The notes under the pieces are model-generated. The model saw only the letters and a program-made list of their open reading frames with translations. It did not search any database and was not told the origin of the DNA. From Nilaparvata lugens (Eukaryota; Arthropoda; Insecta; Hemiptera; Delphacidae), in assembly GCF_014356525.2 (NCBI RefSeq), contig NC_052516.1, positions 27,415,796 through 27,479,795 of the forward strand: a stretch of DNA of 64,000 nucleotides, written 5' to 3'. A program made the translations under genes and the position numbers. Positions 888 to 60,663 of this stretch are shown one piece after another. The number at the start of each line of letters is the position of its first letter. The first letter of the stretch is position 1.

Positions 888-16350
<15,463 letters not shown>

Positions 16351-21961: not shown

Positions 21962-22021
21962 CTATTTTGTGTTTTGTAGCTGAATCAGGACAATTTCATA
22001 GGTGAGAATTGCCCCTGCTAT
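21962..22021 (-). CDS. gustatory receptor terminal exon
   Basis: Acceptor attttcag, 19 codons and stop TAG (complement of 21962-21964). Encodes IAGAILTYEIVLIQLQNTK, containing the TY...Q signature that ends insect gustatory receptors. The last signature residue is Leu rather than the usual Phe. Confidence 0.93.
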   Translation of the reverse strand: MAGAILTYEIVLIQLQNTK

Positions 22022-25000: not shown

Positions 25001-28000
25001 TCAAGCCTATTGAGATGCAATATATACAAGAAACACAACACAGATAGTTTTAAAAACACCTGAAAACTTTCATAATAGGTACAGTATATTTCGTTGACTA
25101 AACCACCTTCCTCAACCAAAGTGTTTCCATAACCTCATTTGTACTTTTTTAATCAAAATTAGGGAGAGAAACAGTTTTGGGTTTATCCTGTTGATTCTCT
25201 CCCAATCATTAATTTGATATTGTGATTGTGGAATGTAATAAATAAAGTGGTTGAGGGAGGTTCTTCCTTCTTCACCATTATCACCTTTAGTCATCTCCCT
25301 CACCAGTTGAGGAAATATACTGTACCTATTAGTCTTTTTAAATTCATCTGTGCCGTGTTTCTATTAAGGTGCGTACAGACTTTCGCTCTGCTCCGCAATC
25401 GAACGTCACTCGAGCAGATCGAATGATGATCGACCGGGGAGCAAGAGTGGAACGCGAGAATAGCTAACATCTCCCGTAACGTTCATGATCGGAGCGAGGG
25501 CGGAGCGTGTTGGAGGCGCGTATATCTGTATGCACCTTAATACAGAGAGATAGAAAAGTCGCGCAAATATGAATGAACCTTCCTGTAAATAGAAGTTTCT
25601 ATGAATAAGTTATTTATTTATTCAGTCATGTACAATTATTACACTTGAGTGAGAAGGTACAACAGGCTTATGCCCAAAACTATAGCTTCTCAAATTTTTA
25701 CGACAGTCCAAATCAAAATTTATGTTAAGCCTACTTATTAAAATAACAATTTACACTTCAAAAAACAAATCTGGTTTCTGATAGCTCAACATGTAGCATC
25801 TACAACAAATCTAGAGATCATTGAACTGGATACTAGCCACCCCCGCCGCAAAGTACACCCACGCCGTGGGATGCTTTGTAAACCATTGCTATAGTAAACG
25901 CAAATTGGAGAGGCGGGTGATGATGGTGGCTCCATCTATGAGTGAAATTGGTAAATAAATAATATCGTGTGACCTGGCTGGCTCAGGTCTAATGTCAGAG
26001 TTTTCAGGTCGCAACTGATCAATTTCAGGGCCTCTGACATGATCTATAACGACTGCTTTTTAGGCAGCCGGGACCGATGGCTTTACGTGTCTATCCAAAA
26101 CACGGGAGAAATACGTGTCCATCTCTGAGTAAAATTGGTAAATTTCAAGCAGTAAGATATGTTCAAACAGTTTGTCTGCTTCGTGTTTGTTTACATTTAA
26201 ATTTGTCATCATAACCTAAATTCTCATTATTATTTTTTTTTAAATCCAGTCATTCATTTTATTCTAACTGAATAATTTGGAATGGACATCAACATTTCAA
26301 GCATCAATTCAAGCCTTCACTGAACTGTTGTAATTGTACAAGTGACAAGTATTTGTTTGTTTTACTCTAAAACATAAATAAAACCTGATTTTTAAATTGT
26401 CATGAATGATTTACACATCTCCAATATTTAGAATAACATATTATGCAATTTAAAGCTTGGAATTTACCAATTTCACTCAGAGATGGTGCCACCATCACCT
26501 GCCTCGCCAATTTGCATTCACTATAGCAATGGTTTACAAAACATCCCACGGCGTGGATCAGTGGGTCTACTTTGCGGCGGACCTAAGTCTGTATAGTGTT
26601 AAGCAGGGAACCCACTATGCCGTCACCGTTGCGTATCGGCAACATTGCTTCGCATTGTTTTAAACGAACGGCAACCCACTTTACCCGTCCGTCACCGGCC
26701 ACGACCGTGTCCGTCAATCACCGTCGGCCACCATTGCTGTTTGGGGCATTCTTGCCGGATAGCCGGTCCGTTTTTTTATCATTCTTCCAGTCGACATTCA
26801 ACTATCAGTGAAGTCACATCGCCAGTGTTTTGTTGTAGTGCGCCTTTGTTCTGTGAACGATGAGTACGGACAAAATGTTGATAGAGGCTATTAGGGAGTA
26901 TCCCTTCCTGAATAATACTAGTGATAATAGTTATCACGACAAACGTAAATGGAATCGCTAAAAAAATCAAATGAAAAAGTAACATGACATTTATAAATTT
27001 ACTTACTTCAGTGTCATGGCCAGCCGCTCCTCAGGACCAATGACTTCACGGAAGTTATTGTGTTTCACTGGGAATTTCAGTAACTCGAGCAATTCGTAGA
27101 ACTTCTTTGGATTCATGCGGAAATATAAAAAGAACTTAGCATCGTCTTTTTTCAAGTCGTCAAACAAATGATGAAATTCACCATATTCGTTTCTTCTTCT
27201 GAAGATTTCGTGCACCCAGTACCTATGCTTCCTCCGTTTCTGTATCTCTTCTTCTTCAGCACATGCTGCGGCTATTACTAACAATTCCTCCTCGTCTGAT
27301 GAACTCTCCATCGCAACTGATGCAATTCTTCTGGTTAGCTCTGGTTTCTGACGGAGCTAACCAGACGGTCAAGTGGGTTATCGCCGGAAAAATGACGGTG
27401 AAGGCGGCGACTGACGGTGACGGTCGGTGCTGGACGGTGCCTGATGGTGACTGCATAGTGGTTTCCCTGCTTAAGCATGTCGTTTTCTCAAGAGCAACGA
27501 GTTTTACCTTAAAAGGAGGTAAATAAGCCCACTTACAGTGGGGTTACCTTAAAGGAAGAGTTTATAAAAACAGGCCAACACACTGCATGAACTGAAGATT
27601 AACATCAGAACAGAAATCAAGAACATCAATGTAAACGTGCTGAAAAAAGTGTCATCAAACATGATAAAACGAGTTCATGCATCCATTACTGAAAAGGCAG
27701 CCATTTTGAGTATTTGTAGTAAAAATGTAAGTATTTTGTGTTTACATGTTCTAATAATAAATAAAGTTTGTAAAATACATTTTATTACTTCCTTATTTGA
27801 TGATGTACGCAACTTTTTGATCACTCTTTATATTGGTGTTATCACTCACCTCAATACAATAGCTTTCGTAAGGACATTTAAAAAGTTCCGGTGTGACTTT
27901 TAGGCTTTCATCGTGCACTGCAGCAGCTTGAATGACCACGGCTGTGGTGCGAGCAACCAGAAACAAGAACGAGTACAAGTAGAATATGCTTGGAATGTAG

Positions 28001-31000
28001 TCTTGTTTTATGGAGCTGAAACATGGACATACTTGAATTTAATTTTTTTTCAATAAAAAAAAATTGAATGATAATTAGCAAAAGGAAATTTTATGAATGA
28101 AACTGCCCAAAAGATTGTTCAATATTTGCTTGAATGAAACTGCCCAAAAATTAATTGTTCAATATTTGCAGCAACAGAAGTCCTTTCTGCTATTTGTAAT
28201 TCTTAGTTCTATAACTTAGTTCTTTAGTTCTGCTGATAATCAGCCAAATGACATTGATCTTCTCAATAATGCAGATAGTAAAAATTTCAGTCTATGTAGC
28301 AGATCTATTCTCATTCAATAGGCATATTCCTAATTTAAACATTAGCCTATTCGACCTATTATTCTCTACCAAAAGAAAAACTCATAAGTTTTTTTAAGGT
28401 AGCCCTAGTTGAAGTTTTTCCAATGATATTGAATTGCTATTGGATTGAAAATATCAATTTATTCTACTACGGTATTAAAAATATAATTGCTATTTCAATA
28501 ATATTCCAAACTTGGGGTCTAATTGAATTGCTGCCTTTATTTAATTCTAGGAGAACGAAGTTAGGGTGCAGTTGACCCTCTCTTACACGTAATAAGCCTC
28601 AACCCCCATTCATGTAAAATTAGAAGATTCATTCGTAGGGCCTATATAGGCCAGGGGCGGATCCAGGACTCTGACCTGATAGGAGGGCGCGATGATTGGG
28701 GTTGTCGTCCGGGGACCAACCCCCTGTTCAACTCCCCCCACCAAAAAAATTGTTGAAGTTTTAAATCAAAAACTTTATTTTTTAATATTGATTAGATTTT
28801 TTATACATTAGCCTATAGACTACTTATTTCTGCACCCTCATCATTTTTTTTCAAACACACCACTTAAAAAAAGTGGGGGGACGATTGCCCCTCCCTGGAT
28901 CCGCGCCTGATAGCCTATTGGCTAGCTCTTGAGACTAAAAGTAGACTATTTTTACAAACTTATAGCAATAAAAAATGTATATAAATAAGTTTTACTCACT
29001 CAATCTCAGTAATAAGCTGAGCACAAATAAAGTATATGTTGTTGGCCACAGATATAGCTATAATTTTATTGATATGATTGTCGACAGTTTTGACAAGATG
29101 TGTCATGTTCGCATACATTTCTCTGTATTCTCTCCATTGACTTTCTGTCAATACCTGAAAAAAATTCATTCAAGTTAACTGTTACTTTTGATAACTTATT
29201 ACGCTACCACACGCTACCTATAATTGCTATAGACGTTGAGAATAGCCTAACGTAGGCTATTTACACAGATTAAGCGCATATTTTTGTATCGTACATTTTT
29301 TATAAACTGCAGTGAATTGAAAATTGATGAAATCTTTCATTTAAATAGACATATTATGTATATAATCTGTTACTAGTTATATCAATGGCACGTAATTTTT
29401 AGAATATTCGTAACCTTTTCGTAAAGAAAAGCACACACGACCTTCCAACTTATTCAGAGTTCAGTCGAGAACATCGTAATAGGAAAAGAAATACATTTGA
29501 TAATATATCATTCCAGACATGAAATACATAGCGTACGAAATTCATAATAAAAAATAATCAATAATTAAAGAACTATTTTTGAAATTCCAACTAAACATAC
29601 AGATTTTATTTTCAATTCAAAATCTGACACGCGCAATCATGCAATCATTGTTTTCTGATTGGTTGACTTTTGATGACATAATTTCAGGTGACTGTCAAAA
29701 AAATGATTGCAAAATTGTTTTAAACAATATTGAATCAAATAAAATATTATTTTTCTTTTTTTAATTTGTGAGACTTTTTAATTTGAGTTTTTTCATAGTT
29801 GGGTAGATGAGATTTTTAATAAGTTGTTGAAGCTTTTTGACATGGATGTTTACTTGATCGTAGTTGCTAAAAAATTTGATTACTCATTACTCATTTTTCC
29901 TCGTTCTTTGTCTTGGGGTTGAACGTGTGTCCGTGTGATCATTAATTTAAAGATTATCGTACAGTTTTTCAGTTTTTGACTAGGGCCCAGCATTAAGATG
30001 CCATGGCCTTTGAAATGGTGGAAACAAAAATCCAGAAGAAGAAAGGAGAGGTACGGTATGTTTTTATAAATTATAGAAGATGTTTTACACTATCATACAG
30101 TAATTATTTTCTTAATTTGAAAGAGGTTAGGTCAAGTTTGCGAAACACTGACGATATAATTATTATTGGCCTACAGGGTTAGTAAAAATTATAAAAACAG
30201 CTTAATATATCTTTTACAGGTATAATTTGACGGTTGAGGATTCTATTTCGATAAAAAAAAACTTTTGATCTAGTAGTCCAGTCAAGGAAGGGTTATAGAG
30301 GAAAAAGTTTGAAGGACAATTTTTGACCCTGCAGCTCTGTTTAGTGTGGTAGGGAGGTAAACATATCAAAAGTCTCTACCCCTCCCCTATTGCTTATATT
30401 GTTTTTGAAGGGACGGATTCAAGGATCCAAAGGTTCAAAGAACCCCACACGTCAACCGAAGCTTATTGTGTTCCCATGTAGTTTGTTAGTTAGGCAAACC
30501 AATACCTATGTCCTTTACAAGAACCAGGAGATTTTCCCTATGCAAAGATTCCATTCATCACCTGCTTGAAATCCTTGTTGCAATCCAGTGTGATATGCTT
30601 GGCAGTCTTTTCAGACTAATTAGTTCCACTCCTGGCCTTCTTTGTAGGTCCTTCCGCTGAGGAAGGGGCGGCCAAGTTTCCTCTAGGGCGCCCGGTCACC
30701 CTTGACTCAGTCCCTTGACCCACATTTGTGCCTGGTTTTTCACCCATCACTGGTCTCCTGGGTTTTGTCTTTTTGTCCCTCCGAAACTTCTCTAGGTCAA
30801 AAGCCTCACCTCACCCAAGAAGTTTTGCCTAGATGGCCGCCCTTCTTTGAGCAGTGGTGAGTTTTGGCTTCTCCATCCACAAACTCGTGACCTACGTGAG
30901 TTCCACTCCTGGCCTTTTTGTAAGCCCTTCCGCTGAAGGGGCGGCCAAACTGCCTCTAGGGCGCCCGGCCACCCTCAACTCAGCCTCTTGACCCACATTT

Positions 31001-34000
31001 GTGCCTGGAGTTTCACCCATCTTTGGTCTCTTGGGTTTTTTTCTTTTTGCCCCTCCGAAACTGCCCTGATGGGGCAGATCCCGTGGGTTTGAGATCCATT
31101 TTAGTCGCCTCCCACGACAAGCATGGATACTGTGGGTGAATTCTGGTTTTCAACACATTCTTGAGTACTATGATCGACTCAAAGCTCTCCCAACCCACAG
31201 GGGGCTCCCCTATGTTAACGGGGTTGCGGTAGTTCGAAAGTACCCAACGTTATTTGGTTTCTCGCATCTTCTTCTTCTTTCCCTATTCCTTGTTGTCTCA
31301 CAGTGTCGGGTGTAGCTCAGACCATCTTCTACATTCTCTCCTGTAGCCAGCCAATCTTCTCATCTCACTCTAATTTTTGCCTCTCTTCAAACCTGCTGCC
31401 ATAACACTGTTAAGATAGGTGTTCATTGGACGATGCAATTTAAAGTTCTTCACCTCTAAAAAAAACACCCGTTTTAAATATTGTGGAATTATAGTAGCAA
31501 TGTTATTGAAAGTAAATCAAAATTTATAGTTGTTTCCTGAAAAATGTTATGATCTATTACCGGTATTCAAAATTTAGTTTATCAGTAATTGCCTACTGTA
31601 TTCTGTGTTCTCTAGATGCATGTTACAAGAGCTCGTGTAGCCTACATGAATCCACTCTAAAACATCAGTGGTGTCCTTATGTGATATACGAAACTACACT
31701 AGGGACTAGGGCACCAGTGGTGTGCGTGTGAAATACTCGACCCTACACTAGGAAACAAGTGGTATTCGTTTTTAAAACATGACTCTACACTAGGACACCA
31801 GTAATGTCCATATGTAAGCCTATAGTGAGGTCCACGTTATAATGGCAGTGTTTAACAATGGATTTGCTATTCTTGTCTATCATTCCACAAAGCGGATAGC
31901 GCTATCTCTTTCTCGCTTTTCTCGGGTTAAAGAAAGGAGACGGGGCCGCGCTACCTGTACACTGGGCTATTGTTCCAAAAAGGTTCATCCTCCAACTCTC
32001 AACTATCACACTCTATTGTCCTCTGATTCTGCTTCATCACCCTCATTAGTAGCCGGAGTGGCCCCATCTGCTTTCTTGAAGGCAGTTTTAGCTGGTAGGA
32101 ACTCATCTATTACTTTCCACCATACCTGTTACTTGTATTCTCACTTTATTATTGAATCTAGATCAGTGTTAAAGTAATTGTTATTCAGTTATTCCTAATG
32201 GTTCTTTTTGATGAAACTCAACTTGCTCACAAGCTGTATACAGACTAACTTGAGTTACATACAATTCGTGGCTACACACCACGTGCGCTATTCATCAGCT
32301 GATGATATGTCTATGTCTCTAGTATCATCATGTAAACTGAATATAATAGGACGTAAGAATAAGTATAAAAGGACGTAATCTTTATTAAAAAATAATACGT
32401 TCTTAGTTTGACTAAATTTGTACTTATAATCGATAGAATGTGTGTGTTTATCCAATCAATGTAGGTTACCACTGGTTTACAGCTGAAAATGCCTTTAAGT
32501 AATCAGACTGGGCCACCAATATATTCCTCGGAGTGGAATCCTTAACAATAGTCCACGAAAATGTCGAAATTCAATAACAATAGGCGACCACTGAAGGGTC
32601 ACTAGAACTTCTACCTGTTCATCCATTGCTCTCGGCGGCCCCGTCTCCTTTCTTTTACCCCTTTTCTCTGTTGCCAGATCGTCTTTTAACAATGTAGAAT
32701 TAATAATTAATCAGCAGAATATTTCATTTTAATTATGAAAATTCATTATGAAATTATTGAAAACTATTATTTATTGCTCAATAAGATATAATTTATTATT
32801 TTAAACTAGAATGAGCAGTTAATTTATGACATCAATAAATCTGACCAATTGACAAGACAGAGGATCGGCAACGTTTTTCCTATCTTTCTCCACTGTCATT
32901 ATAACGTGGACCTCACTATAGTACATGATTTTACACTAGAACACCAGTGGTGTCTGTGTGTAATGCACGACTCCACAGTTGCAGGACATCAGTAGTGACT
33001 CTACACTAGGACTCCAGCGGTGACTGGGTTATTAATGGACTCCAGCGGTGACTGGGTGACTGTGTGTAATACATGACTCCACACGGACACCAGTGGTAAT
33101 ACACGACTCCACACTTATACGACGGTGGTGTCCGTGTATAATACACGACTCTACACAAGGACACCAGTGGTATCCGTGTATAGTGCACGACCCCACACTA
33201 GGACACCAATGCACGACTTCACACTAGGTCACCAATGCAATGACGAATTTCAACTCCTATGTTGAAATTTAGATCATGTTGAGCATAACGATTTTTAGAC
33301 GCTCAATATTTATCGTGCAATAAAGTACCTACTTATAACATTAAGCAGCGGTGTTTATTAAATATGTTTGGCTTGCTGTTAAAAATGGTAGCTTACTTTA
33401 TATTGTACAATAATTTAGGCTCAACTCACACTTACGCGATTTAGGTCGAGAAGAGACTCGACTCTAGTCGAGAGCATATATTTTCAAATAGTGACGTCGC
33501 GGAGACTAGAATCGACTGGTCTGACTGTCACCTTTTGGAAACACATGCTCTCGACTAGAGTCGAGTCTCTTCTCGACCTGAGTCGCTTACGACTGAAACT
33601 CAAACATTTTGACTTGAAATAGTTGAAAACCAATAATCACCCTTCCTCTAATTTTCCTGAGCGTTCTGTTGACAATAGTGAACTGAGCCGCCAACGCCGC
33701 GCTGATTAGCATGATGAATAAATCGATGAAATTCCAGATCAAGGTGGCTGTTAAACTCAGCCATAGAATCAGCAGACCTTTCCATACTCTGTAGTCGCTC
33801 TCCTCCTCAATAAGGTACCAGTGTGAGTTGAGCGAATAGCGTTCCAGAAAAATGTGAAAAGTCTCCTGTGAAAAAAAGTTGAAAATTGAATAAAATAAGT
33901 ACAAAAAAGATTATATTTGTTTTTTTGAAATAATTTTTTTTCAAAACTTGATAATGATGTAGCCAGCATTGAAACTAGTTATTTTTAACCTGAGTTTTTA

Positions 34001-37000
34001 ATTTGTTATTTTATATTACAAAAATCTTTAAAAAGGTACTATGGTGCTATTTTACAAATAAGAAATAAAATTATTATATATCTGAATATATACGTTTCAG
34101 AAAGTACAAATAAATAAGTTAATACTTGAGCCACCAACTGACAAAAATGAAAGGTCTCTTGTAGAAAAATTAGAGATTCAATAACATAAGTTATTGTATA
34201 TATAGAAATAAGTTGATACTTGAGCCGCCAACTGACTAAATATCATCATGATAGGATTTTGTGAAATTCCCACTTTTCTCAAATTTCCTATTCAACCACA
34301 GATTTATATTATAGCCTATTTAAAATTTCATTCTTCATATTTATTATGATATTGCTGGATCGTTTTAGGGTTGAAGAATAGAAAGGGAATTCACCTTTCT
34401 GATAAAATTGAATAAAATATTTTTATTTCAAAGTTTTACTAAGGGTAATGGGATGTAAGTTCATCAATAAGTAGGTAATAGATATTGGTTTATATCACAA
34501 TACCCGGGAAAATGTATTTTATTAGTTTGAGTTTTTCGTCTTTCTCAAACAACTTTAAGGTTTCTTTTAATGATTTAAGTAAATGTCGAGTAATTTGGAC
34601 TAGAAAACATGCTAGGAACTTCTTTTATCTATAAAATATGTGAGTGGTCGAAGAAAGATGTTCAGAAATAATTGGAATTATTTATTTGAATGAAAAAAAT
34701 AATTGGAAGAACATGGTTTGCTCTCTGTATATTATCAAGTGGAACAGAGCGACTGCATGTGTTTTAATGTAATGCAATTAATTTTAACACATTATTGGCA
34801 TGAACCTATCAAAAAGTACTTGCATAGAAACCTGGCTTCCTCGTTCCGTTCAGGACGATTTCTTTTATTGAAGCTTTGACGGCCGCCCTTGTAGTAAGAA
34901 CATCGTGAAACATGTGTTCAACTGGAATCAAAATGATTTAAAATGTTATAGCTTATACTGAAAAAATGTAGACCGTTGTTAATAATAAAAATTGGAACTC
35001 ACTTCTTTATTTGAAACTAATATCTTTATTTGTAAAAGTTCCTCTTAACATGGATAACTGAACCATAAAAAAGAATTAGCGTCTGACAGTAACTATCATA
35101 CAAGATCCATGTTTGTATTTTGTGGATATTCTTTCAAGCAATAGATTTTTTTATGAAACCTTTTTTATTTGTAATCGTTTCCTACTACTCTCAATCAAAT
35201 TACATAATTGATTACGCTATGTTGACTTGACGGCAATAATTTAATGAATCCAAGTATCCAATAACTAACATAGAATTATTTTTAATATTACAGGTGAATG
35301 AAATATAAGTTTTGATATTTCACTACATTAATAGACTACAAACACACAGTTTTTTATTGTTATAGATTAATGGATTAACATTTGTGTTGAATAATAAACA
35401 TTGTACTGTAGATACATTTTATTGAAGTATTCTTTTTGCATATTATCAAAATGAATGTTTTTATCCTCTACAATCATTTTGATAAAATAAAAATAATTCA
35501 TACCATATTTTTTATTAATTATTCTGGTATGCGCCTCATTTAAAAACGTTTTAAAGCACAACAGATTTGCCGCCATTTGCCATTAATGCCTTTTTGATCT
35601 GGTCAGCTTTATTTTGATACTGGAAGTTGGTAACTTCCTACAGCTGATAATCAAGGTTGGAGAACAGTCGACACATCATTCATAACACAGGAAATATACA
35701 TCAGATAAAAGTCTGTCAAACTGCAATGCAATTAATGAAAATAAACGAAACTGATAAGTCTCACTATCTAACAAATAATATTTATTATGAGCAAAATTTC
35801 CTCTGATAGCAGTTTAAACAGGTAAAAACATTTCAATTAAATCAACAACTGTTTGTTTACGTTTTAAAAGAGGTTAGAATATTGTAGTCTATTTATTCAC
35901 GTCATCTTGATATTATTATTATCTATAGAATATTATCCAAATTCTTATCTTTATCTCTCTTTTACAGACTTTTCAAAGAGAATGAAGAACTTAAACGGTA
36001 AGTGTTATCTCTTAGTTGATACATTCCAGTTTTTCTTTTGCCAGTAGTTTTGACTGTTTGCATCACTCGTAATGTCTGTGTCAAGTCTAAAGTTTTACAA
36101 CTCAACTGTATTATATATCAAATAGACAAACAATGAAGTGTTATTGCAAACATTTTATATGGAGAAAAGAGTTGACTACCTTATGTAAGTTAGTTGTACA
36201 TTTTTCCAGATATTTCTAACAACTATAACAATATTATTTTTAAAGGCTACCAGATTACAATTTTATAGTTGCATGCTCCAATATTCTATTTTTAATTTCT
36301 TTATTGATAATCGTATTATTTTTAAATTGAAACTCCTAGTTTATTAGATTTATCCAAAGTATAATAGATATTTCTGTATTTGTAACCTAAGATTTTAAAA
36401 TATATTTCCTAATATTGGCAAGAATGCTTTCAAGATGTAATATTCCAGTTTTTGGGGTTCAAAAACTTACTAAATCCGAGTGACATTAGTGTTCCAGTCA
36501 TGACTACAAATCTTAGCAGAACTTTTGGGGTTCCAAATCTGTACATGGATAGTTCAATATTGTGCCATTCCCTTATAAGATCGGGCCACGAACGCGCAAG
36601 CTTTAAGAATAAGTACACGCCAATACAAGCATTTCCGTAGAATATTGTACCAGAAGTCGCTTTCTTGAAACCACCTAGAAATTGGAAAAAGTAACCATTT
36701 ATTATTCATTGAATCAGAATTACTATAAGTGTATAACATACATGTTTATTATGAATATATACATGATAGCCCTATACATTATATCAGTTCAATACTGCAT
36801 TTTGATTAAGTTAAGTTTTGGTTAGTTTCAAGTTGAGCGAAATATTATCACATAGTCAAATCCATAAGTTTTATAAGGAATATAGTATGTACATCTTTTT
36901 AAACACCTATTGTGTCCATTGTAAACTGGTACGGAAACTTTCAAAGATCATCATATTCTTGTACTATATTTATCTCTAATGTTATCATAATTCTCCAATT

Positions 37001-40000
37001 AGAGATAAGCCTTTGAATAAAATCAACCAACTTGATTATTCTATCCAAATAGTATGAAGCTATGAACACATTTTCAAGACCCACCACAATTTTAGTTACG
37101 GTACTCTTATCAGTAATGTATTATGCAATTTTAGTAGGTCTATAGTGAGGTCCACGTTATAATGACAATATTTGATTAACTTTGATGTTGCTATCCTTGT
37201 CTATCATTCGACAAAGCAGGTAGTACTATCCTTTTCTAGCTCCGCAACGAAGCCAAATCTGTTTTTGACAATGCAGGAATATAATTAATTAGGGCAGAGA
37301 ATCGACAATGCTGTTCTCCTATCTTTATTCACTGTCATTATAACGTGGACCTTACTATATAGTTGAGTACATTCTACAATATTTTATGTTCTAATTTTGA
37401 TAAGATAACTTCTATTTATAGCTGTCAGCTAGACCTAAGCCTGGTATCAAAGCGTCAGAGATGGCTGGAAAATTATATATTTACAATACAGAATAGAGTC
37501 ACAAAATTGAAATTATTGGAGTGAAACTATTCTTGTACTATTATTGTATTCTTGTACTGGTAATTGTATGTTAATAACTATAGTGAGGTCCACGTTAAGG
37601 TGCGTACAGATATACGCGCCGCGAACATGAGCAATTCACTTTTAATCAGCTGATTATATCTGTAGGTATTTTTACAGAAACGGTAAGATACAGATATAAA
37701 AAGCTTAGCATCAGCTGATTGAAAGTGAATTGCTCATGTTCGCGGCGAGGAAATCTGTTCGCACCTTTATAATGGCAGTGGATAGAGATAGGAGAACAGC
37801 GTTGCCTTTTGTCTGCCTTAATTTATTATACTTCTACATTGTTAAAACCGGATTTGGCAAAGTTGCGAAGCTAGAAAAGGATAGTCTGTTTTGCCGAACA
37901 ATAGACAAGGATAGCAACACCTTTGTTGATCAAATACTGCCATTATAACGTAGACCTCACTGTATAAGAATTTCAAGATGTTTCTTCCTATCACATCATC
38001 TTCTCTAAAACACAGGATTTCTCGGATATTTATTAAATTTTATGGGCCATTAGAACTGGATTCCCAAATATCAGTGTCAGTGAATGTCACCGCTACAGTG
38101 ATAGGCCCTATATTATTTTCTCGCTTCGCCGTGCTGAGATTGAATAGTCTTTACTTGGCATATTTTTCATAGTCATCGACAGGGAATAGTCTAATCAGAA
38201 CTTATGGAAATTAGATTCCATTTTGAACCTACAAATTTTATAGTCCATCAGCTTTAATGTGTACTAGTAAACGGGCCTTAGAGAATTGAAACAATTCAAT
38301 ATATTCAGTCCATGACCGCCAGTCGCCAAACAGACCTCGTCAAAGTTTAAAACAATTGGAACACGAATAACATGAGATGGCTGTAGATAGTTCGTTTCAT
38401 GTGGCTCTGCAGATGTACTGCAATTCTAAATTATGAAACAGTCTCAAACTGTTGCACAAGTCCACTGGTTTCATCATCTTTGATATCGAACGTGAACGAT
38501 TAACTAAAGTACAGAAGTCCCATCACGTCTTGGGAACAAAGGTCTACAATAGTTGCCAGAGTCAATAAAAAATTATCCAGTCTCTTTGTTCGGCAAATCG
38601 CTATTTGATCTTCTGCGAACAAACCCCTTCTATTCTTTGGAGGAGTTTTTCACACATTCTTTATAATAAATTAAGTAGGTATCATCAAGTGTTATGAATA
38701 TTTTATTGACGTTGCTGATGACTGTATGGTCCGATCTATCTCTGTGAGTACAGAGGGTAGTTGATGAGTTTCTCACGTACCAGTCTACAAAACTAGATTT
38801 AGAGGTTTAATTCGATTGAAAACTAGGTTCGATTCTAAACAAGGTTTAGATTAGGGTTAGATTTATAGATACATTTATTTTGATTTTTTCCCTTATAAAC
38901 TCTTATCAGTGTAGTACTAAGAATTCCAGCGCACAAACCGAGGTTTTGCTGGCCTTGTCCGATTGAAAACTGGCTATTTTTAGTTCAAGAATTTATGTGT
39001 TGATTGGAATTTTAGTACTATGTATTTTATAAATCATACATTGTATTCATCTATTGAATTGTTATCAATTGGTTAACAATAAATTTGAATTTTGAAAAAA
39101 ATATTTTGCAACCAACCTGCAGCAGCTAAATTGGCCTGGTTGATGTTTCTCATGGAGTACCGGACGGCCAGAATTTCGATGGTTATGAATCCGAAGAGCA
39201 GGAAAAAGGTGTAGGCCGTGGGATAGGAGATCCAATGGAAGGCCAGTCTGTTAGGGTCGGCACTCATCATATTGGTCACTGGAAACGCACCCATGTACGA
39301 GGCCGTTCCCAAAATAAAACGTATATTCTGGTGTATGCCGAAACGTTTGCGTTTTCTGAAATCATTTACTCATTTATTGATAATTTTTTTAGTATCGATT
39401 AAAGTACATTCGTATGTGGTAGGTAGGTGAGAAAGTCCCACCTGGCCTAAATCTATATAAAAGCGAAATGGCACTCACTCACTCGCAGAACTAAAAATCA
39501 ACCAGACCAAAAACGTTCAAATTTGGTAGGTATGTTCAGTTGACCCTTTAGAGGCGCACTAAGAACGGATTTGGAAAAATTTCCAAAGATACGCCCAAAA
39601 TCTGCGTTTTTCCAGCGTTTTTTTGCGCTTTCTCAGCTTTATCGAGAAAAAATGAACAGAAAATGTTCAAATTTACTACAGAAGCTCAGCTGGGGTGTAA
39701 TAATGTTAGAAGGAATTTGAAATAACGCCAAAGATACGCCCAAAATTAGCGGTTTTTTGCGTTTTCTCAGTTCTTTCATCAAGTAATAGACAGAAAATGT
39801 TCAAATTTGGTACAGAGGTTTAGCTAGTCTAAAAATTTTGTGATGAGGTAACTTTAATATTTCATCAAAGATACGCCCAAAATCACCGTTTTTCTCAGCT
39901 TTTCTGCGTTTTCTCAGTACTTTGACTTTCTGATGGAATTAAGCATGCTCAAATGAAAAATGCAGTCGAGCGAAGCGAGCCCGCTGATCTCATTTTTGGA

Positions 40001-40553
40001 CGATCCAGTTGGGGGTCCAGGGGGCGGAGCCACATGGCTTGACGGATATGGCGAGCGAAGCGAACCTTATAAGTATATAATTTAATCCGTGGTCTAGTGG
40101 ATAGTCATAGCCACCTCTAATACAGGTATTAGAGGTGGCTATGATAGAGTGCTTGCTTAGCAGCATAGAGTCCCGGGTTCAAACCCTCTCATTACCAACA
40201 TTTTTTTAAACAGGTCACTCCCATGTTATCGGATGGGCACGTTAACTGTCGGTCCCGGCTGAAGTATGACAGTCGGAAGGCTCATTGACGGCTTAAATTA
40301 TTATATATTCAGGCAAGGTGGGACCTTCCCGCAAGGGACTCCCGACCAACAAAAGCCATACGAATTTACTTTTCATCGTCATCTTCTATATTCGTCAAGT
40401 TGGAAACCGGCTGGAAATTTTTACTTTCCTTGCCCTATTACCATAGGTAAGGAAAGTATCGCTTTCCGAAAAAAATTAAGGTACCCCAATTTCTAAATTT
40501 CTATACGTTTCAAGATCCCCTGAGTCCAAAAAAGTGGTTTTCGGGTATTGGTC

Positions 40554-40595
<42 letters not shown>

Positions 40596-43220
40596 TCTGT
40601 GTACACGAAATCTCATCTCCCAATTAACGGAATGACTTGAAATTTGGAACGTAAGGTCCTTACAACATAAGGATCCGACACGAACAATTTCGATGAAATG
40701 CGGTTCAAGATGGCGACTAAAATGGCGAAAATGTTGTCAAAAATAGGGTTTTTCGCGATTCTCTCGAAAACGGCTCCAACGATTTTGATCAAATTCATAT
40801 CTTAAATAGTCATTGATAAGCTCAATCAACTGCCACTAGTCCCATATCTGTAAAAATTTCAGGAGCTCCGCCCCATCTATACAAAGTTTGATTTTAGATT
40901 CCCAATTATCAGGCTTCAGATACAATGTAAACAAAAAGAAAATCAAGTGGAAAGGATTGAGCATGAAAATTTCTTCAAATAATGTTCAGTAACATTTTCA
41001 CCTAAAATTGAAAATAAGTTCGAAATTCGAGAAAATGTGATTATTCAATTGCAAACTGTTGGCAACTATTGATTCTATTAAATCATTCACTATGAAGAGA
41101 TAGCAGACCTCGTGTGTCTCCAACGTTATTGTCCTGTCACCAGCTGGCTCAGATCTTTAAATAGTAAACGTGAGATGTGCGTGAACACTAGCGTCAGATG
41201 ATCAATTTTTATAACGGCAAGGAAAGTTGTGTGAGTGCGCCACACCAGATTTGTTTTTCTTTACTAAGCCATCAATGGGACTTACTTATGTTATACTTCA
41301 GCCGGGAGTGACTATTAACGTGACTATTAACACGGGAGTGACGTGATGGATTTGATTTGTTTGGACGTGTTTGTGACGGGAGTGATGGGAGAGAAAAAAC
41401 GGGCTTTAGGCCGGTTACAGAGCTCGACCGACCGTCAGTGCGTACGTCAGTCGCGCTTGTCTCTTCCATAGATATTCCATGTATCCGTATAGAGCAGGAC
41501 TGACGGCACTCATGCGTACGGTCAGGACCATGCGTTTTATACTGCGTACGAGGACCATCGGTCGAGCTCGTGCGCATCCGTTCCATCGGTCGACTGACGC
41601 GCTAATGAAACAAATAGAAGCTTTCAGAGCTGTACTGATCAGTAGCCCGATCGCAACATAACCAATGTGCTGACACGTCTGCCTGACAATCAGCTGATAT
41701 TGAATTGAATAGCATAATGAGTGAATTCAATTAGGTATTGTCATATTTGAATTCAGAGTTTTTCTGTACATTTCTTCAATCATTTCTAAATTTTTTACTG
41801 AAAAAATCATATATTATTAATATTATCTACATTTTTTTGATCCGTAGCTTAAAGTGACTGCAAGTATTCCCAATGGTGATACAAGCTCGAAATAACTCAC
41901 CAAAATTTCTGATGGACATTCTGAGGTAGTTGAAAAATGTATCTTCACCCCAAGCAATGATGTATATAATGGTACTAAATTCCCTTTGAAATGCTCTTTG
42001 GGCGACCATCGGGCGAACTTGATATCTACGTCTTTTAATCTTTCGTTTACGAAGATAATAAGCTGCAGTAACAATCTGTAAAGGCATCCATTTTGTGAGT
42101 CAGAAAAACTTATGTATCGTCAGGATGGTGCATACGCACTGACGGTCGGTCGAGCTCTGAATGTGTAAAACTGATTCATCGATGCGTACGGTCAGGATGG
42201 TACATACGCACTGACGGTCGGTCGAGCTCTGTAACCGGCCTTAGTCTTAATCATCTGAAATTTATTTCAGAATTAATAGATTATAATCATCTGGAATAAA
42301 TTTCAGAAGATTATAATCATCTGGAATATATTTCATATCTGGAATACAGATGATTATAATTTTCTGAAATTTATTCCAGATGATTATAATCTCCTGAAAT
42401 TTATTCCAGGTAATTTTCCAGTGCTTGAAAGTATAATTCTATGATTTGTCCAAGCAATAGTAGGATTCGATGTCATTCTTTTTCAGTAATTAATTGTCTT
42501 TACTTTTTCTAAAATGAACAATGCAATAAAATGATTTTACCTTGGCGTGAACAGCAATTCATCTCTGTTCGATTGCACAACTATTGGTTCGATTTTGTTG
42601 TTTTTGAAATTTTTGTCGATATACATTCTGAACTTTTTCCAATTTGTTGTCAGATCACTCCTAATTTGAAATCTCTCCATTGTCGTATTGGCTGCAAATT
42701 CATGAAGTCCATTATGTAAATTGTATTATGATGTGAAAATCATGAATTATGATCGATAATGAGTTTTACCCAACAATTTTCCAGCTCTTCCTTTGAAAGT
42801 AGATTATAATCGTTCAGATTATAAAAAATGTATTTGCTAAAAATTCGTTTAGCCAAAATATCGTTCTGTTGATAAAGAATTCAAATATCTAAAAAAACTA
42901 TTTCTAGCCAAAATGTTTATTCTTTAAATTTCAACAGTATTGTGAGAACATGATTCCTGGATGTTTACAAAAAATGTTTTATGAATTGCATGAAATTTAA
43001 TGAATCGGAGAACTAAATTATTTAAATATTGAAAAATATGTGGGGACATTTAATGGAGATTCCATGAATCTACCTGGTAGATTCAATATACCACGTGAAA
43101 ATTATTACACTAGACCTTATCTTGCCAAGTAATCAATTTTTATTTGTTACCTGATTCATTTTTCAACTCTCACCTGAATTGTTTAGAATCACCCATAATT
43201 GATGCTTTTATAGAAGACAT
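21962..43220 (-). CDS. sugar-type gustatory receptor (insect Gr64/Gr5a-like), nine exons
   Basis: Exons in transcript order: 43220-43174, 39355-39117, 36674-36471, 34921-34824, 33865-33641, 29154-29000, 28015-27850, 23915-23826, 22021-21962. All phases agree and the sum is 1284 nt, that is 427 residues plus stop, close to the family's usual length. Sugar-receptor marks: FLKLARSWPDLIREWHNIE (exon 3), LIWNFIDLFIMLISAALA (exon 5), ISVANNIYFICAQLI (exon 6), FLVARTTAVVIQAAAVHDES (exon 7) and the C-terminal TYEIVLIQL, a version of the gustatory receptor TYhhhhhQF signature. Several hydrophobic stretches fit a seven-helix, ligand-gated channel with inverted topology in the dendritic membrane of taste neurons. 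Known for the family: response to sugars; the ligand here is unknown. The gene interleaves with the F-box gene on the other strand. The N-terminal exon is the weakest part. Confidence 0.9.
22261..22499. repeat. 239-bp long hairpin in the last receptor intron
   Basis: ATTGAATGAAAAAGACTGAG and complement at the ends; the arms run through AATTAGAAAGACCG and GGTTATTACACCATTGTCAA to a short loop near 22375. Almost perfect, so likely young. Confidence 0.85.
22785..22875. repeat. dispersed repeat, TGCCTTTATTTTATACCTGG family
   Basis: ATTCTATTCTATTCTC-type head, then GGGAGGGCGAAGTTAGGGCG and CCCTCTCTTACAC. The same text in reverse is at 47945-48035; weaker copies lie at 28525-28600 and near 44190. 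Confidence 0.75.
23565..23665. repeat. hairpin with TTTATAAAATAGAATTATAG arms
   Basis: TTTATAAAATAGAATTATAG ... CCCTTTAAATTAATAA pairs with its complement ending at 23665. Related arms occur at 45700-46290 and near 12112. Confidence 0.7.
23826..23915 (-). CDS. gustatory receptor exon 8
   Basis: Acceptor ttttcag and donor GTGAGT; exactly 30 codons, frame open at both ends. Encodes VQRFLQEVTSDHVSLTGLNM then FSITRNFLLG, equivalent to the VERLxxQ...VALSGxxFFxxTRxL block just before the last helix. Confidence 0.92.
24194..24455. repeat. 262-bp inverted-repeat element
   Basis: CCATAGAGAAACAATAGTGT and CTTACGCTATTGTTTCTCTATGG termini, with TTATCTCAAGC inside both. Its right terminus is abutted by another copy of the same terminus in opposite orientation, forming a 51-bp palindrome. 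Confidence 0.7.
24433..24483. repeat. 51-bp perfect palindrome, single-base centre
   Basis: Arms of 25 bases beginning CTTACGCTATTGTTTCTCTA around one G at 24458. It arises where two element termini meet head to head. Confidence 0.9.
24640..25000. repeat. recurring CTTGGTGAGTTTTGCC motif
   Basis: CTTGGTGAGTTTTGCC or close variants occur near 24646, 24872, 24912 and 24966, and AACTCACCAAAG at about 24750 in reverse. Spacing is irregular. Lies in receptor intron 7. Confidence 0.5.
25367..25537. mobile_element. hairpin element of the AGGTGCG family
   Basis: Starts AGGTGCGTACAGA and ends TCTGTATGCACC, beside TTA on both sides. Same termini and size as the nested element at 37598, with a different core (GGAGCGAGGGCGGAGCG). 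Confidence 0.75.
25600..25725. repeat. dispersed repeat, ACAACAGGCTTA family
   Basis: TTATTTATTTATTCAG followed by GAAGGTACAACAGGCTTATG and CCCAAAACTA; the counterpart of 15660-15765. Confidence 0.55.
25843..26580. repeat. ~740-bp element with ~120-bp inverted ends
   Basis: CCGCCGCAAAGTA at both outer edges in opposite orientation, followed by CACGCCGTGGGATG and AAACCATTGCTATAGT. The inner arms end ATCTCTGAGTGAAATTGGTA. A partial third copy of the inner arm lies at about 26118-26145. Confidence 0.8.
26860..26961 (+). pseudogene. start of a MADF-domain protein (Harbinger accessory gene remnant)
   Basis: Opens with MSTDKMLIEAIREYPFLNN, then DNSYHDKRKWNR before a stop. LIxxIxxYPxLx...YxDKxK is the beginning of the MADF domain, found in the DNA-binding companion protein of many insect Harbinger elements. 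Only about 33 codons remain, cut by internal deletion. Confidence 0.7.
27007..27311 (-). pseudogene. Harbinger nuclease N-terminal exon remnant
   Basis: Encodes an acidic start (MESSSDEEELL), then HRYWVHEIFRRRNEYGEFHH, FFLYFRMNPKKFYELLELL and IGPEERLAMTL. The RYWVHP-like, FRMxxxxFxxLL and ERLAxTL motifs are those that precede the DDE nuclease of PIF/Harbinger transposases. It ends at a consensus GTAAGT donor; no DDE exon follows in the element. Confidence 0.85.
27850..28015 (-). CDS. gustatory receptor exon 7
   Basis: Acceptor gtttcag and donor GTGAGT. Encodes FYLYSFLFLVARTTAVVIQA followed by AAVHDES and ends ESYCIE, matching the RTxxVxxxAAxIxDES...WCVE block of sugar receptors. Confidence 0.94.
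28080..28165. repeat. short tandem duplication
   Basis: GAATGAAACTGCCCAAAA ... TTGTTCAATATTTGC appears twice in a row, about 40 bp apart, in receptor intron 6, just upstream (in transcript sense) of exon 7. Confidence 0.8.
28652..28916. repeat. 265-bp element with hAT-like CAGGGGCGGATCCAGG ends
   Basis: CAGGGGCGGATCCAGGACTC at the left; CCTGGATCCGCGCCTGATAG at the right. GC-rich arms and an AT-rich centre. The ATATAGGC/ATAGCCTA flanks are not identical, so the target duplication is unproven. Confidence 0.7.
29000..29154 (-). CDS. gustatory receptor exon 6
   Basis: Acceptor tttttcag and donor GTGAGT. Encodes VLTESQWREYREMYANMTHL and then IISKxx-like ISVANNIYFICAQLITEI, matching the SFANNLYFIC block of the family. 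Ends two bases into a codon. Confidence 0.93.
29998..30050 (+). CDS. proposed first coding exon of the F-box gene
   Basis: ATG at 29998 with an in-frame TGA at 29977-29979, 17 codons and two bases, then donor GTACGG. Encodes MPWPLKWWKQKSRRRKE. It lies in receptor intron 5 (between 29154 and 33641, opposite strand). Confidence 0.6.
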
Positions 43221-46200
43221 TTTTGTTCTTTATAATTTGCAATTATCGTACCAAAAGTTTTTGAAACTGTGTGACTTCTTTTTATATTACAACAAACTCT
43301 TGAGGTTTAGTGAATTAGGTACTGTACATCGTTTAAGGCTCAACCGTCATTCCATCAAGTTAAACATTTTTAAACTTTCTTAGTTTGTGTTTTCAACATT
43401 TAATGTTGATTTTAAATGTAACAAATCTCCGATTTTAGTTTCTATCACTCAATAAAGTACTATCAATAAGATTTCAACTTGGAGCTTTAGATACCCTGTC
43501 CTCTAATACTAGATCTTGAATTTCAACTGGCACCTATAAGGTTTTCAACTATTGGTGTTCACGAATTGGTGTTTTCTCTGAAATTATCCAGCAGAAGTAT
43601 AACTCAATGATATTATCATGATTATTTCCCACAAACTGAACAGTTGTGAAAATTCTCACAGTCGATCTGATATTGATATCATAAAAATGAGTTTTATGTA
43701 GGAAAATCCAAAACAGCACATGGGCTCTGTATATGATGAGTGGAACATTCTTGTTCCCAACAAGTGATATATTCTTTGTAATCGATTTCAATTTTAGATA
43801 GAAGGGTTGGTTAGATTGGGTTTTTGGGAATCGATCACAATTTCAATCGTTATCGGTGTAATTCTCATTCTCTTATAAACAGTATACTATTCAAATGGAA
43901 AAAATACGAAAGATATCAATGATTTGTTGGAAGGTTGCAATGCGATTTTTTGAAAATAATTAATTTATCCAGTTTATACCTCAGATGTACAGTGTATTCT
44001 ACGTATAACTACTTTGCATATTCTCATAGACTATCCCATCAATCAAGCGATTGAAATAATTCATGAATTAATGTAGAGAGAAACAGAGAAATTTCTCTCC
44101 AAAACAGTTTACCACCAACATTTGATAAGTCCATTTCAAGGTTGCGTAAAATACACATTATGATTTGTAGTTGAAAAAAATATAGATGGATAGGCTGCCT
44201 TTATTTTAAAACCTGGAGCGCATTAATGTAATGTAATATCTATGTTACTTTTATTGTATATCGGTATTGTGAATTTTATTGTTATGGTGACGACTGTAAA
44301 ACATGTTCAGCTATAAAAACAATATAAAAATTTGTTGAACCTTTTAATTAAAACATTTTAAAATATTTCAACTATTGAAATGTTTTACATTTTTATTTAT
44401 TTAAATGTTTTCATAGAAGGGTACTACAAGTTTCTAAATTGTTGTTTTTATTAATTTGAATAAAGTAGCTCATATAAGTGAATCGATTTCATGCTCAGTT
44501 ATGAACAAGCAGAAATGAAGTTATTAAAATATACACTACATTATCATTTTTGAATTCGGCATGATGATGATGACATTATTATTAATATCAATTTATTTAT
44601 ACAATATGAGAACCAAGAGATTCGTATTAATGAATCACTAAGAAAAGAACTGAGAACTGTTCCTATGAAAATTAATACTTCTTATATCTTAAGTCCATGT
44701 CGATCTATTAATCTCCTGTAATTCCGTGTAATATATAAATCCCCTTGTAATCTATAGAAATAGTTGGATATTATGTACCTTCAATTCTTACAGCAGTCAA
44801 CATTATATCATTCCTTAATCAGCTCGCAGATTATCCATTCATGAAAATTAGTCACATAAAAAAAAAACCAATGGACTATATGAAACTGTGCACCTTGATA
44901 TTAATAACACAACATTGAATATAAACTCCTTAAAAATTAATACCTTTGTAATCTATGGAAACTATAAAAAACTAGACCAGTAAAAAATGTTTAAATTGTG
45001 TACCTCCAATTCTTACAGCAGTCAACATTATATCATTCCTTAATCAGCTCGCAGATTATCCATTCATAAGAATTATTCACATTTTTAAAAAATCCATTGG
45101 ACTATATGAGACTGTGCACCTTTATATTAATAACACAACATTGAATTTAAACTCCACATTCAATAATAAAGATCAAAAATCGATCTTGTAAAGCTCAAAT
45201 ATTCCAGTGTTGGAGAGAAATGTCAACTCCTAGTATCTGTGCCTACAGTACAAGTGCTAGCGATGTTTTGTATGAATCTGAAACGTTTTACTTTCCCTGT
45301 ATGGTTAGGCAATAAAAAGGGAAAATGATAGTTTCCCTCTTTGATTCACCACTTCTTGCATCCCCTTCTATTCCCCTTATTCACACGCTTTTCGCTCTTA
45401 TTATGGACGCTTTCTGTTTTACTTCAAAATCTTTTGTCACTTTTTGCCAATCTCTCATTAAAGTCAACCCGCTTTTGGGTAAACAGTGCTGGCTACTTGA
45501 AACTCAAGTACTTCTCTTCATGTTTTGTTCAAAGTTCTTATTGTTTCCTCCTCTTATTCTATTTTCCACTTCTCTATCCTTTACTATTACTTTTTTCACA
45601 AATTTTCTCCTCCCAAAAAAACTATTATGACTACCATGAATTCCATTAATTATAACATTGAATGGAAGAGTTACAGGTACAGTATTATGACAACCATTTA
45701 TAAAATAGAATTATTGTACCCTTTGAAAATAATAGTATAATAGGTTAATAATATAAATTATAACAAGGGACTATAAATTAAACACTGGACTAAATTATAA
45801 CAAAGAACAAATAGTTCTATCTTTTACTATTACTTTTTACCCAAATTTTCTCCTCCCAAAATACTACTATGACTACCATTAATTCCAATAATTATAACTT
45901 TGAATGGAAGAGTTACAGGTACAGTACTATGACAACCATTTATAAAATAGAATTATTGTACCCTTTGAAAATAATAGAATAATAGGTTATGAATATAAAT
46001 TATAACAATATTAGATTCAGTGTTCACACCATCTTCAGGTTATAAAATAAATTTCAAATAAACTTTTTACTAAAATTAGTACATTTCAAATAAACGTTTT
46101 ACTAAAATTAGTAAAACGTTTATTAGTAATAAATTACTAAAATTAGTGAAACGTTTATTTGAAATGTATTTTATAACCTGAAGATGGTGTGAACACTGAA

Positions 46201-49200
46201 ATTAGTTGTTATAATAATTTATATTCTTAACCTATTATTTTATTATTTTCAAAGGGTACTCTATTTTATAAATGGTGTTCATAATACTGTACCTGTAACT
46301 TTAGTAATGTAATGTAATTCTATTTTATAAATAAATATAAGTAGTCTCTTTTCTGTATAGGGCTACTTGTAATATAAATATAAATAAAAATAAAAATCTC
46401 AGTACCCTTTCTTTGAATTATTTTATCACTAAAAAAATAATTACTGATAATAATAATAATAATATCACTGATAAAATAATTCAAAGAAAGGGTACTGAGA
46501 TTTTTATTTCTATTTATTTAAATATAAGTATCCCAGATTTCATACATTTTAAGAAGATAAGACAACCATATATTCCAATTTCAACTTTGAGCACAATACA
46601 AATATGATGAAATCACATTTTCAACTCTTTCATTGAAAAATTATCTGTCAGAAACATGAACTCCAAGTATAAGTATGACTTGAGCTTGAAACAAAAAATT
46701 AATGATGGCACCCCATACACTCTCTGATCTATAGTATTCGTAGTCTTCATACAAGGGCACCAGTGAGACACTTGAGTCACCAGTGGTGTCCTTGTGTAAT
46801 AGAAGCAACTCTGTTCAATGGACTATAATGATTCTCGGACACCAATGTTGTTCCAGATCTGGTTTCCTTAGTGTATAAGAGTTGAGTGTTAAGAACTAAT
46901 AAACGGCAACTCAATTAGACACTGGGTGTCCTATACTGAGTTTCAGATCAAACTGTCAGCATTTTTCGAATAAGATGCATTGGTGTTATTCGTAAGGACT
47001 CCTGACAACAGTTGAAAGTGAATCTTACTATAGTGTAATTTGAGGTCGGGTGTTGAATTAAAAAAAAATGATACAAGTCCCAATAAGCTATGAATATCTC
47101 TTTTTTTTTAGTTCAACTCACACTGGACGGATGAACTCCTGGACTGGACTGGATGGATTGAAAATTTCCAAATTCGAGTAAGCTATAAATTTATGTTGTT
47201 GAATTTTCAAATTCACCTCACAATAAGACATCCTAAAATTCACGTATTTATTACCTTCTTGGTTGATTTTTTCCAATAATTGAAAGCAAACGTTAAAGCT
47301 TCCACTTTTGGAATAATTTGTTTGACAAAATAAACTTTAGAACACAAAAGAAAAATTGCTTTGTCTGAGACACTTATATTGAATCTCAATTAAAGAGTAA
47401 ATATGTATGATGTGAAGGAAATTTAAACATTAAGATTGAGTGAGAAAAAAGTGGAAAAGAAAGTTTTTTTTTCAGTAGACAAAATTATTTTGAGAGCTAC
47501 GTAATAAGGCACTTTCAAAGAATAGCTCTCATTAATAGAATTGACAGTCGATTTTGTGACATTTCAGATCCTCATTAGTTAGTGTTGACCTCTTGAAAAA
47601 CATCAACTACAAATATTTACAATAAATTTTGCAATACTGAGTGGTAGTGGTACTCTACCCTCTTAGAATCTTCTTCTTCCTCTTCCTCTGCCGCTTCTTC
47701 TTCCATCCACCTTATTCCCTATTTTACAATCCATCATACCATACTTTCTACTTCGAGACACGTTTTATTTCTTCTTTTACCTATCTCATCTAATTCTATC
47801 ACTTATTTTTCATCTTCTTTCTCCTCCTCTACTTCTTCCTTGCTTCTTTTCTCCGTCTGATCCTCTTACTCCATCTCCCCCTTCTACTCCACCAACTCGT
47901 TCTCCCCTCCCTCCTACTCCTCCTCCTCCCACTTCTCCACTTCTTTGCGGGTTAGGTGTAAGAGAGGGCCGACTGCGCCCTAACTTCGCCCTCCCAGGTA
48001 TAAAATAAAGGCAGTCATTCTATTCTATTCTCCAAAACTACTCTTTCTTCTTCATACTCTTAATTATCCTCCTCATTTTCTTCTTCTTCTCTTCTCCGTC
48101 TCCTCCTACTTCTCCTACTCCTTCTCCTTCTTCTTCATCAACTCTTCCTCCTTCTCCACTTTCAAACTTCTCTTTTTCCTTTTTGCTCCTTGTATTTATT
48201 CTATTCATTAGGAGCAACTTTTTTTGTTTCACTCATTCTTCTTCTCCTTTATCCTCTTTCCCTTTTCTTCTCAATTCCTTTACACTAACTCCTCGTCCCT
48301 CTCTTCTCCTCTCCCTTCTCCCTACTTCCTATCCACCTTCTTCTCCTCTCTATCTCCCTTTTTCATTTTTCGACAACTTTCCCCCCCCCCCTCCAACCTC
48401 ATTTGACAGGTAGTAATTATCTCCCCAGCCCAAATCAAACAAATTAAATCGTTAACTTTCCCATAGGCAAAGTTGTAACATGCAGAACATAAGTTTAAGT
48501 ACCAGCCAATTCACGGCACGCTTTCCCAAGTATCGATTTTATTTTATCGACAATGATTCTCTGGAAATATCGATCTGATTTCCACTTGTTTACCAGCATG
48601 TTTCAAGTGCTACTGATTAGTTCTCACTTTGGGGGGCCATAAAACATCTTCGATAAACTTATGAAAAGTATGTTTACTCAATTTATCGCTTTTTATGATA
48701 TCTTTATTATTCATGCTCTATTTATATTATCCCTTTTAGAGTATAGTAAAGAGGGTTCTGGGTTAGGCTTATATTTCCATATCCTTAGTATAGTAAAGAG
48801 GGTTATTCCTAATAGAATACTGTAGTTATAGTAATAGAGAGTAGGAATATAGTAATACAAGCCCTCCTACACACTTTGTATTAACTGATTTTTATATATT
48901 CTTCCTATAAAATTTCAGTATCCCAGGTGAAGTAATACATTCAATACTAAATTATTCTCATGTACAGGATGACACAGAAGAAGGAGAACTTTTAAAACGC
49001 CATAAAACATTAGTGGGTAGGGCAAAATGGTTTTATTCAAACTAATGTAAAGTTCAAGACTTGCCATTTGAGAATTATTAATAACATCTATCACTTTTTG
49101 ATAATTACTTATTTAAGATGGCTTCCTCCTGAACGAATACACTCTTGAAATCTGTGTTGACGATTCCTCATTGATCGCTGCAACATCTGCGTTTCCTGGT

Positions 49201-60338: not shown

Positions 60339-60663
60339 ACAAAAGTCCTTCTATGTAAGTACTTGCCTTGAAATCAAGCAGAAAAAAGTTGTGCAGATAG
60401 GCAAAGAAGAATATGTGAAAGTATGCAATCCAAACAACAATGCACAGAATTAGTTACAAGAGAGGAAAAATTACTCATTCATTTGCCAAATTGAACTGGA
60501 AGTGATTACTGACCAGTTTGAGAGGTATTACATCACCTTGACTGTTTATTTTTGCAAATGAACCTGTTGAAATACTGCATTTCATTGCCTATTTTACCAT
60601 ATTTTGAGAATAAAATTGAAAAGAACTCTCAAACGTACTATAAAGTTTAGAACGTACAAAAAA

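Follow-up and report, generated by a model that had tools for sequence, protein, structure and literature searches.

A sugar receptor gene and an F-box gene on opposite strands overlap at their starting ends in Nilaparvata lugens

In Nilaparvata lugens a sugar receptor gene on the minus strand and an unrelated F-box gene on the plus strand overlap at their starting ends, and in gene models that reproduce the public proteins each gene's start lies within introns of its opposite-strand partner. An interleaving of this kind had been proposed in an earlier note made from the sequence alone, and it is borne out here by two exon sets that splice to exact public proteins. On these models we favour (with a probability of roughly 0.8) a reading in which the 5' ends of two ordinary protein-coding genes overlap and this overlap is tolerated without a specific regulatory role. 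The work corrects the gene model of a sugar receptor that is studied in a major rice pest.

Results

The window is a stretch of 64,000 nucleotides of contig NC_052516.1, from 27,415,796 to 27,479,795, and the positions of all features in it are collected in Table 1. The splice product of the minus-strand gene is identical across all 470 aa to P0003, the public N. lugens 'gustatory receptor for sugar taste 64f-like isoform X1' (470 aa), which we located through an initial partial exon join of the receptor. Eight of its nine introns are GT-AG. The exception is intron 5 (33866-34823, minus strand), which is GC-AG in the very model that gives the exact public protein, and at intron 9 an alternative non-GT-AG cut yields an identical protein. 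The Trehalose_recp domain (PF06151, 7.9e-78) covers residues 66-469 of 470, and the sequence match among solved structures is to Gr64a (4.2e-44). In both respects the protein resembles the insect Gr64 group of sugar receptors, and in comparison with that group we noted no unusual feature. Relatives are present in other Hemiptera, and none were found in the viral and prokaryote contig collections. Elsewhere in the genome P0003 matches a partial copy of the last exons on contig C1609 and, weakly, two places on C4. The C1609 copy (7949-10450) is in two pieces with 68% and 87% identity and is either a pseudogene or a haplotype.

Table 1. Positions of the receptor and F-box features in the window
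Feature	Position	Strand	Remark
Overlap of coding spans	35787..44803	both	9,017 nt; 8,645 nt from the public X2 start
Gr64f-like sugar receptor gene	21962..44803	-	public start codon to stop; 10 exons, 470 aa
Receptor exon 1 (MLTAVRIE)	44779..44803	-	inside F-box intron
Receptor exon 2	42541..42691	-	inside F-box intron; contains internal start (MERF...)
Receptor exon 3	39117..39355	-	inside F-box intron
Receptor exon 4	36471..36674	-	inside F-box intron
Receptor intron 4	34922..36470	-	GT-AG, 1549 nt; contains F-box 5' exons
Receptor exon 5	34824..34921	-	
Receptor exon 6	33641..33865	-	
Receptor exon 7	29000..29154	-	
Receptor exon 8	27850..28015	-	
Receptor exon 9	23826..23915	-	
Receptor exon 10 and stop codon	21962..22021	-	
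Presumed receptor exon 1 of the earlier note (MSSIKASIMGDSKQF)	43174..43220	-	ATG at 43220; absent from public protein
F-box exon 1 of the earlier note (MPWPLKWWKQKSRRRKE)	29998..30050	+	receptor intron 6; unsupported
F-box first coding exon candidate (MSKISSDSSLN)	35787..35821	+	not in X2
F-box exon 2 (RLFKENEELKR)	35968..35997	+	proposed in the earlier note; not in X2
F-box alternative first coding exon (MEKRVDYL)	36159..36184	+	public isoform X2
F-box cassette exon	47112..47177	+	66 nt; used in public X2
F-box exon, first half of F-box domain	51957..52042	+	in public X2
F-box last exon, second half of F-box domain and C-terminal region	55020..56383	+	100% to P0001

On the plus strand lies LOC111062213, and four of its exons, from 36159 to 56383, splice to the exact 513-aa isoform X2 (P0001). 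Two of the four, the X2 first exon and the cassette, are additions to the earlier F-box model. The F-box domain scores above the curated cut-offs of two families (PF12937, 40.7 bits against 24.3; PF00646, 24.9 against 20.5) and is split across the exons 51957-52042 and 55020-56383. A pattern scan for the missing half-domain gave no convincing site because the half-domain runs into the intron, and the split half was instead placed by means of the public protein. Pfam searches of the read-through frames that precede the last exon (one in 43001-50998, two in 49002-55500) returned no family. With the last exon as query, a match to F-box/WD repeat protein 1A (1.3e-5) was limited to residues 210-289, and no WD40 Pfam family was reported in the F-box protein. 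A structure model built from two sequences had a pLDDT of 29 and was unusable.

Both genes encode real proteins, as judged by their exact public matches and their relatives in other species. The public models of the receptor and the F-box protein were probably both built on this same assembly, since each lists a contig of 31,814,171 bp, as long as the one that contains the window, and to that extent they would not be independent witnesses against an artefact of assembly or annotation. Such an artefact is nevertheless extremely improbable as the source of the interleaving: the exons interdigitate one by one on opposite strands with their phases correct, a pattern that one misjoin would not create, the best genome match of each protein is this locus, and 470- and 458-aa forms of the receptor NlGr10 have been verified by PCR according to excerpts of PMC6307266.

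The F-box exons at 35787-35821, 35968-35997 and 36159-36184 all lie within receptor intron 4, and receptor exons 1-4 lie within the first long F-box intron. The coding spans thus overlap on opposite strands from 35787, or from 36159 in the public isoform, to 44803. The two genes are not nested, since both reach beyond the overlap. Comparison of the coding exons showed that 0 of 7 F-box exon candidates touch a receptor coding exon; the absence of exon-exon overlap in the earlier note is confirmed for the coding exons, which also lack the complementarity of a natural antisense transcript pair. It is a new example of an already known type of overlap. Within the overlap, 37141-37964 holds an inverted repeat with arms of 79 and 119 nt that are 83-84% complementary, and by eye it looks like a transposable element.

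The earlier note had placed the overlap at about 13.2 kb (29998-43220, 13,223 nt). That the two transcription units overlap on opposite strands follows from the exact gene models, but their overlap extends over about 9.0 kb instead, and both outer boundaries of the interleaving were probably drawn wrongly. The same note had named, as evidence against itself, a different 5' exon right of 43220 ahead of its third F-box exon, and half of this was found. The X2 exon 47112-47177 does lie right of 43220, yet the X2 exon that precedes it, 36159-36184, lies inside the receptor, and therefore the interleaving survives. It is reasonable to infer, as the note did, that neither gene can move independently.

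We then considered the 5' exons of the F-box gene outside X2. Exon 35968-35997 is probably genuine, as had been proposed. Its splice score of 13.95 is the highest among 39 open phase-2/phase-2 mini-exons in the window (24 on the plus and 15 on the minus strand; 12-300 nt, both site scores at least 1), the next being 10.48. Compared with the N-terminus of the Laodelphax F-box relative it is again at the top of the 39, narrowly (25, next 23).

The sequence 35787-35821 has the phase that this exon requires, and its peptide of 11 residues is identical at 5 of 11 positions to the Laodelphax P0002 MSLASSTLCLD, a comparison that depends on this single protein, which is hypothetical and probably itself a gene model. 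Among 56 sites with an ATG, 11 codons and a GT (32 plus, 24 minus) it ranks first with 15 against 7 for the next. A composition-only shuffle of the residues gave p = 0.076, and when the offset was left free two other plus-strand first-exon candidates scored 16 against its 15; because of these two results the support for the exon rests on length, phase and position. Splicing it to exon 2 and then to the final two exons gives an open frame of 504 residues, or 526 with the cassette, which has no counterpart in the Laodelphax protein. Judged from sequence, 35787-35821 is most likely the exon in which the coding sequence of the F-box gene ancestrally began.

The first exon of the earlier note, 29998-30050, would carry the overlap leftwards to 29998. 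It has an open phase-2 frame to exon 35968-35997 and a fair donor, and the region 29900-30110 matches the genome once and is not an evident repeat. The donor (5.1), however, is reached or exceeded by 6 of the 38 candidate first exons on the plus strand, this one counted, the peptide does not resemble the Laodelphax N-terminus, and a closer first exon is available. In the N-terminal alignment to Laodelphax this model scored 176 against 208 for the model starting at 35787; X2 scored 148, or 143 without the cassette. The exon is no better than other plus-strand candidates, and with 35787-35821 fitting better we regard a gene beginning at 29998 as quite unlikely and have dropped this exon from the model.

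On the receptor side, excerpts of PMC6307266 describe alternative first exons for NlGr10, verified by PCR, that encode 470 and 458 aa, although the survey's table gives the longer form as 471 aa; the 458-aa form is NlGr10b. P0003 has 470 aa, and translation from its second methionine (residue 13, in exon 2) would leave 458 aa. On account of these two lengths we take the receptor gene to be NlGr10, and its 470-aa form is probably NlGr10a.

The start at 43220 in the earlier note does not apply to the public protein, which begins at 44803 and joins 44803-44779 to 42691-42541, and 43220 was set aside as the main receptor start. The donor of 43174-43220 (7.48) is the best of 34 minus-strand first-exon candidates, and splicing to receptor exon 3 gives an open frame of 427 aa. 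This exon may be a further alternative first exon of the receptor. Another possible one is 45004-45028 (minus strand), a tandem copy of receptor exon 1 that reads MLTAVRIG instead of MLTAVRIE and has its donor intact and in the same phase; the copy sits in a repeat with a spacing of about 225 bp and 87-89% identity. A minus-strand frame at 41823-42119 was rejected as a receptor exon. It has no Pfam match and by eye is presumably a transposon remnant.

The Laodelphax relative P0002 is 56% identical to the F-box protein across 81% of the query. When 5.8 billion proteins were searched with the F-box protein, by sequence and by profile, only the two planthopper proteins were returned. These searches miss distant relatives, because diverged paralogs in the same genome went unreturned: in the 1.085-Gb assembly P0001 has 28 matches, 3 of them its own exons, and thus hits at least 25 other places, with up to 38% identity (these counts are lower bounds). 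N. lugens thus holds an expanded and diverged F-box family, and our literature search found no report of a planthopper F-box expansion.

At least 18 of those 25 places cover the position at which the domain of LOC111062213 is split (residues 59/60), each as a single match, and the other 7 fall short of it; an internal stop occurs in 2 of the 18. Five aligned paralog frames, read from stop to stop so that their true starts may differ, each carry a methionine 6-9 residues ahead of the F-box. LOC111062213 and P0002 lack a methionine at this point and continue into upstream exons. Given the unbroken matches over the split position and the methionines ahead of the F-box, the paralogs look unspliced around the domain whereas LOC111062213 is spliced, and the split of the domain looks peculiar to this gene. 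Two histories would account for this difference: gain of the 5' exons of LOC111062213 inside the receptor, or loss of introns from the paralogs by retroposition. Upstream exons sought at 7 paralog loci gave nothing significant (best E 0.26).

Discussion

Our models are consistent with an F-box gene on the plus strand that would start in receptor intron 4, while the start and exons 1-4 of the receptor would be contained in a long F-box intron. The spliced coding mRNAs of the two genes would share no complementarity. The unspliced F-box transcript would carry the antisense of receptor exons 1-4 in its intron, and the unspliced receptor transcript would carry, in intron 4, sequence antisense to the F-box 5' exons. 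The arrangement is likely to go back to an F-box gene that stood head-to-head with the receptor and gained or retained a promoter and short 5' exons in the receptor intron. Tolerance of the overlap probably reflects activity of the two genes mostly in separate cells or at separate times, or alternative first exons that alter its extent. Such exons are found on the F-box side in our models and on the receptor side in excerpts of PMC6307266.

Overlap of this kind has precedents in insects. Excerpts of a survey of Aedes and Anopheles (PMC3689595) put overlapping genes at 8-10% of genes, predominantly in opposite orientation and species-specific. We favour a tolerated overlap in N. lugens because overlapping genes are common in mosquitoes and because, in the same excerpts, opposite pairs show no significant correlation in expression.

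The alternative, raised in the earlier note as transcriptional interference or antisense control, is a functional overlap, in which F-box transcription through receptor exons 1-4 would repress or switch the receptor promoters, or receptor transcription across the F-box promoter in intron 4 would do so to the F-box promoters, for instance with feeding state. In the models each start does sit in the other gene's predicted transcribed unit, and the two first-exon forms of NlGr10 respond to different sugars according to unpublished data mentioned by the authors in excerpts of PMC6307266. Furthermore, a planthopper Gr64f, which may not be this gene, responds to starvation and sulfakinin (excerpts of PMC8366971), and the excerpts of PMC3689595 allow that antisense transcripts of opposite mosquito pairs may be regulatory. 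The lack of significant expression correlation in those same mosquito pairs argues the other way, as do human 5'-overlapping pairs, which in excerpts of PMC8076222 show no down-regulation from the overlap. On balance we consider a functional overlap unlikely. A literature search by the locus number LOC111062213 found no expression data for the F-box gene.

The human pairs resemble the planthopper pair in having overlapping starts on opposite strands, and in excerpts of that study the choice of start site or promoter decides whether the genes overlap at all (PMC8076222). They differ in two respects as far as these excerpts go: the human set is defined by transcription start data and the planthopper pair by gene models only, and in the planthopper several exons of one gene lie within an intron of the other.

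A promoter within an intron of an opposite-strand gene is also found in ceh-10/polq-1 of C. elegans (excerpts of PMC12274878) and in 2mit/tim2 of Drosophila (excerpts of PMC3786989). In both of these pairs one gene lies wholly within its host, whereas the planthopper genes each extend past the other. Excerpts of PMC12274878 report that opposite nested pairs have an average co-expression below that of neighbouring non-nested genes, for which interference is suggested, and that regulatory DNA shared between a nested gene and its host in C. elegans lets the nested gene induce the host, an effect that the authors prefer to see as a by-product. Literature searches for receptor genes that overlap with other genes, or are nested with them, returned nothing beyond one listed honey-bee paper.

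A more elaborate version of regulation can be imagined, in which an F-box gene of the expanded family recruited a promoter and 5' exons from the receptor intron and the two genes now switch each other's first exons, with feeding state selecting the receptor isoform. We think this very unlikely.

Deleting parts of receptor introns 1-4, or manipulating promoters there, would hit the F-box gene as well, the start exons of which are in receptor intron 4. Were the overlap regulatory, it would lend itself well to study, because the models give each gene alternative first exons; were it not, this would be an ordinary overlapping pair.

Two further features flank the genes. Downstream of the F-box gene, 58899-60347 on the minus strand is an open frame of 483 aa with the transposase domain DDE_Tnp_1_7, which we take to be of the piggyBac type. 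Past the 3' end of the receptor, and on the strand opposite to it, two plus-strand frames (10699-11193 and 12223-12579) contain pieces of an ABC transporter domain.
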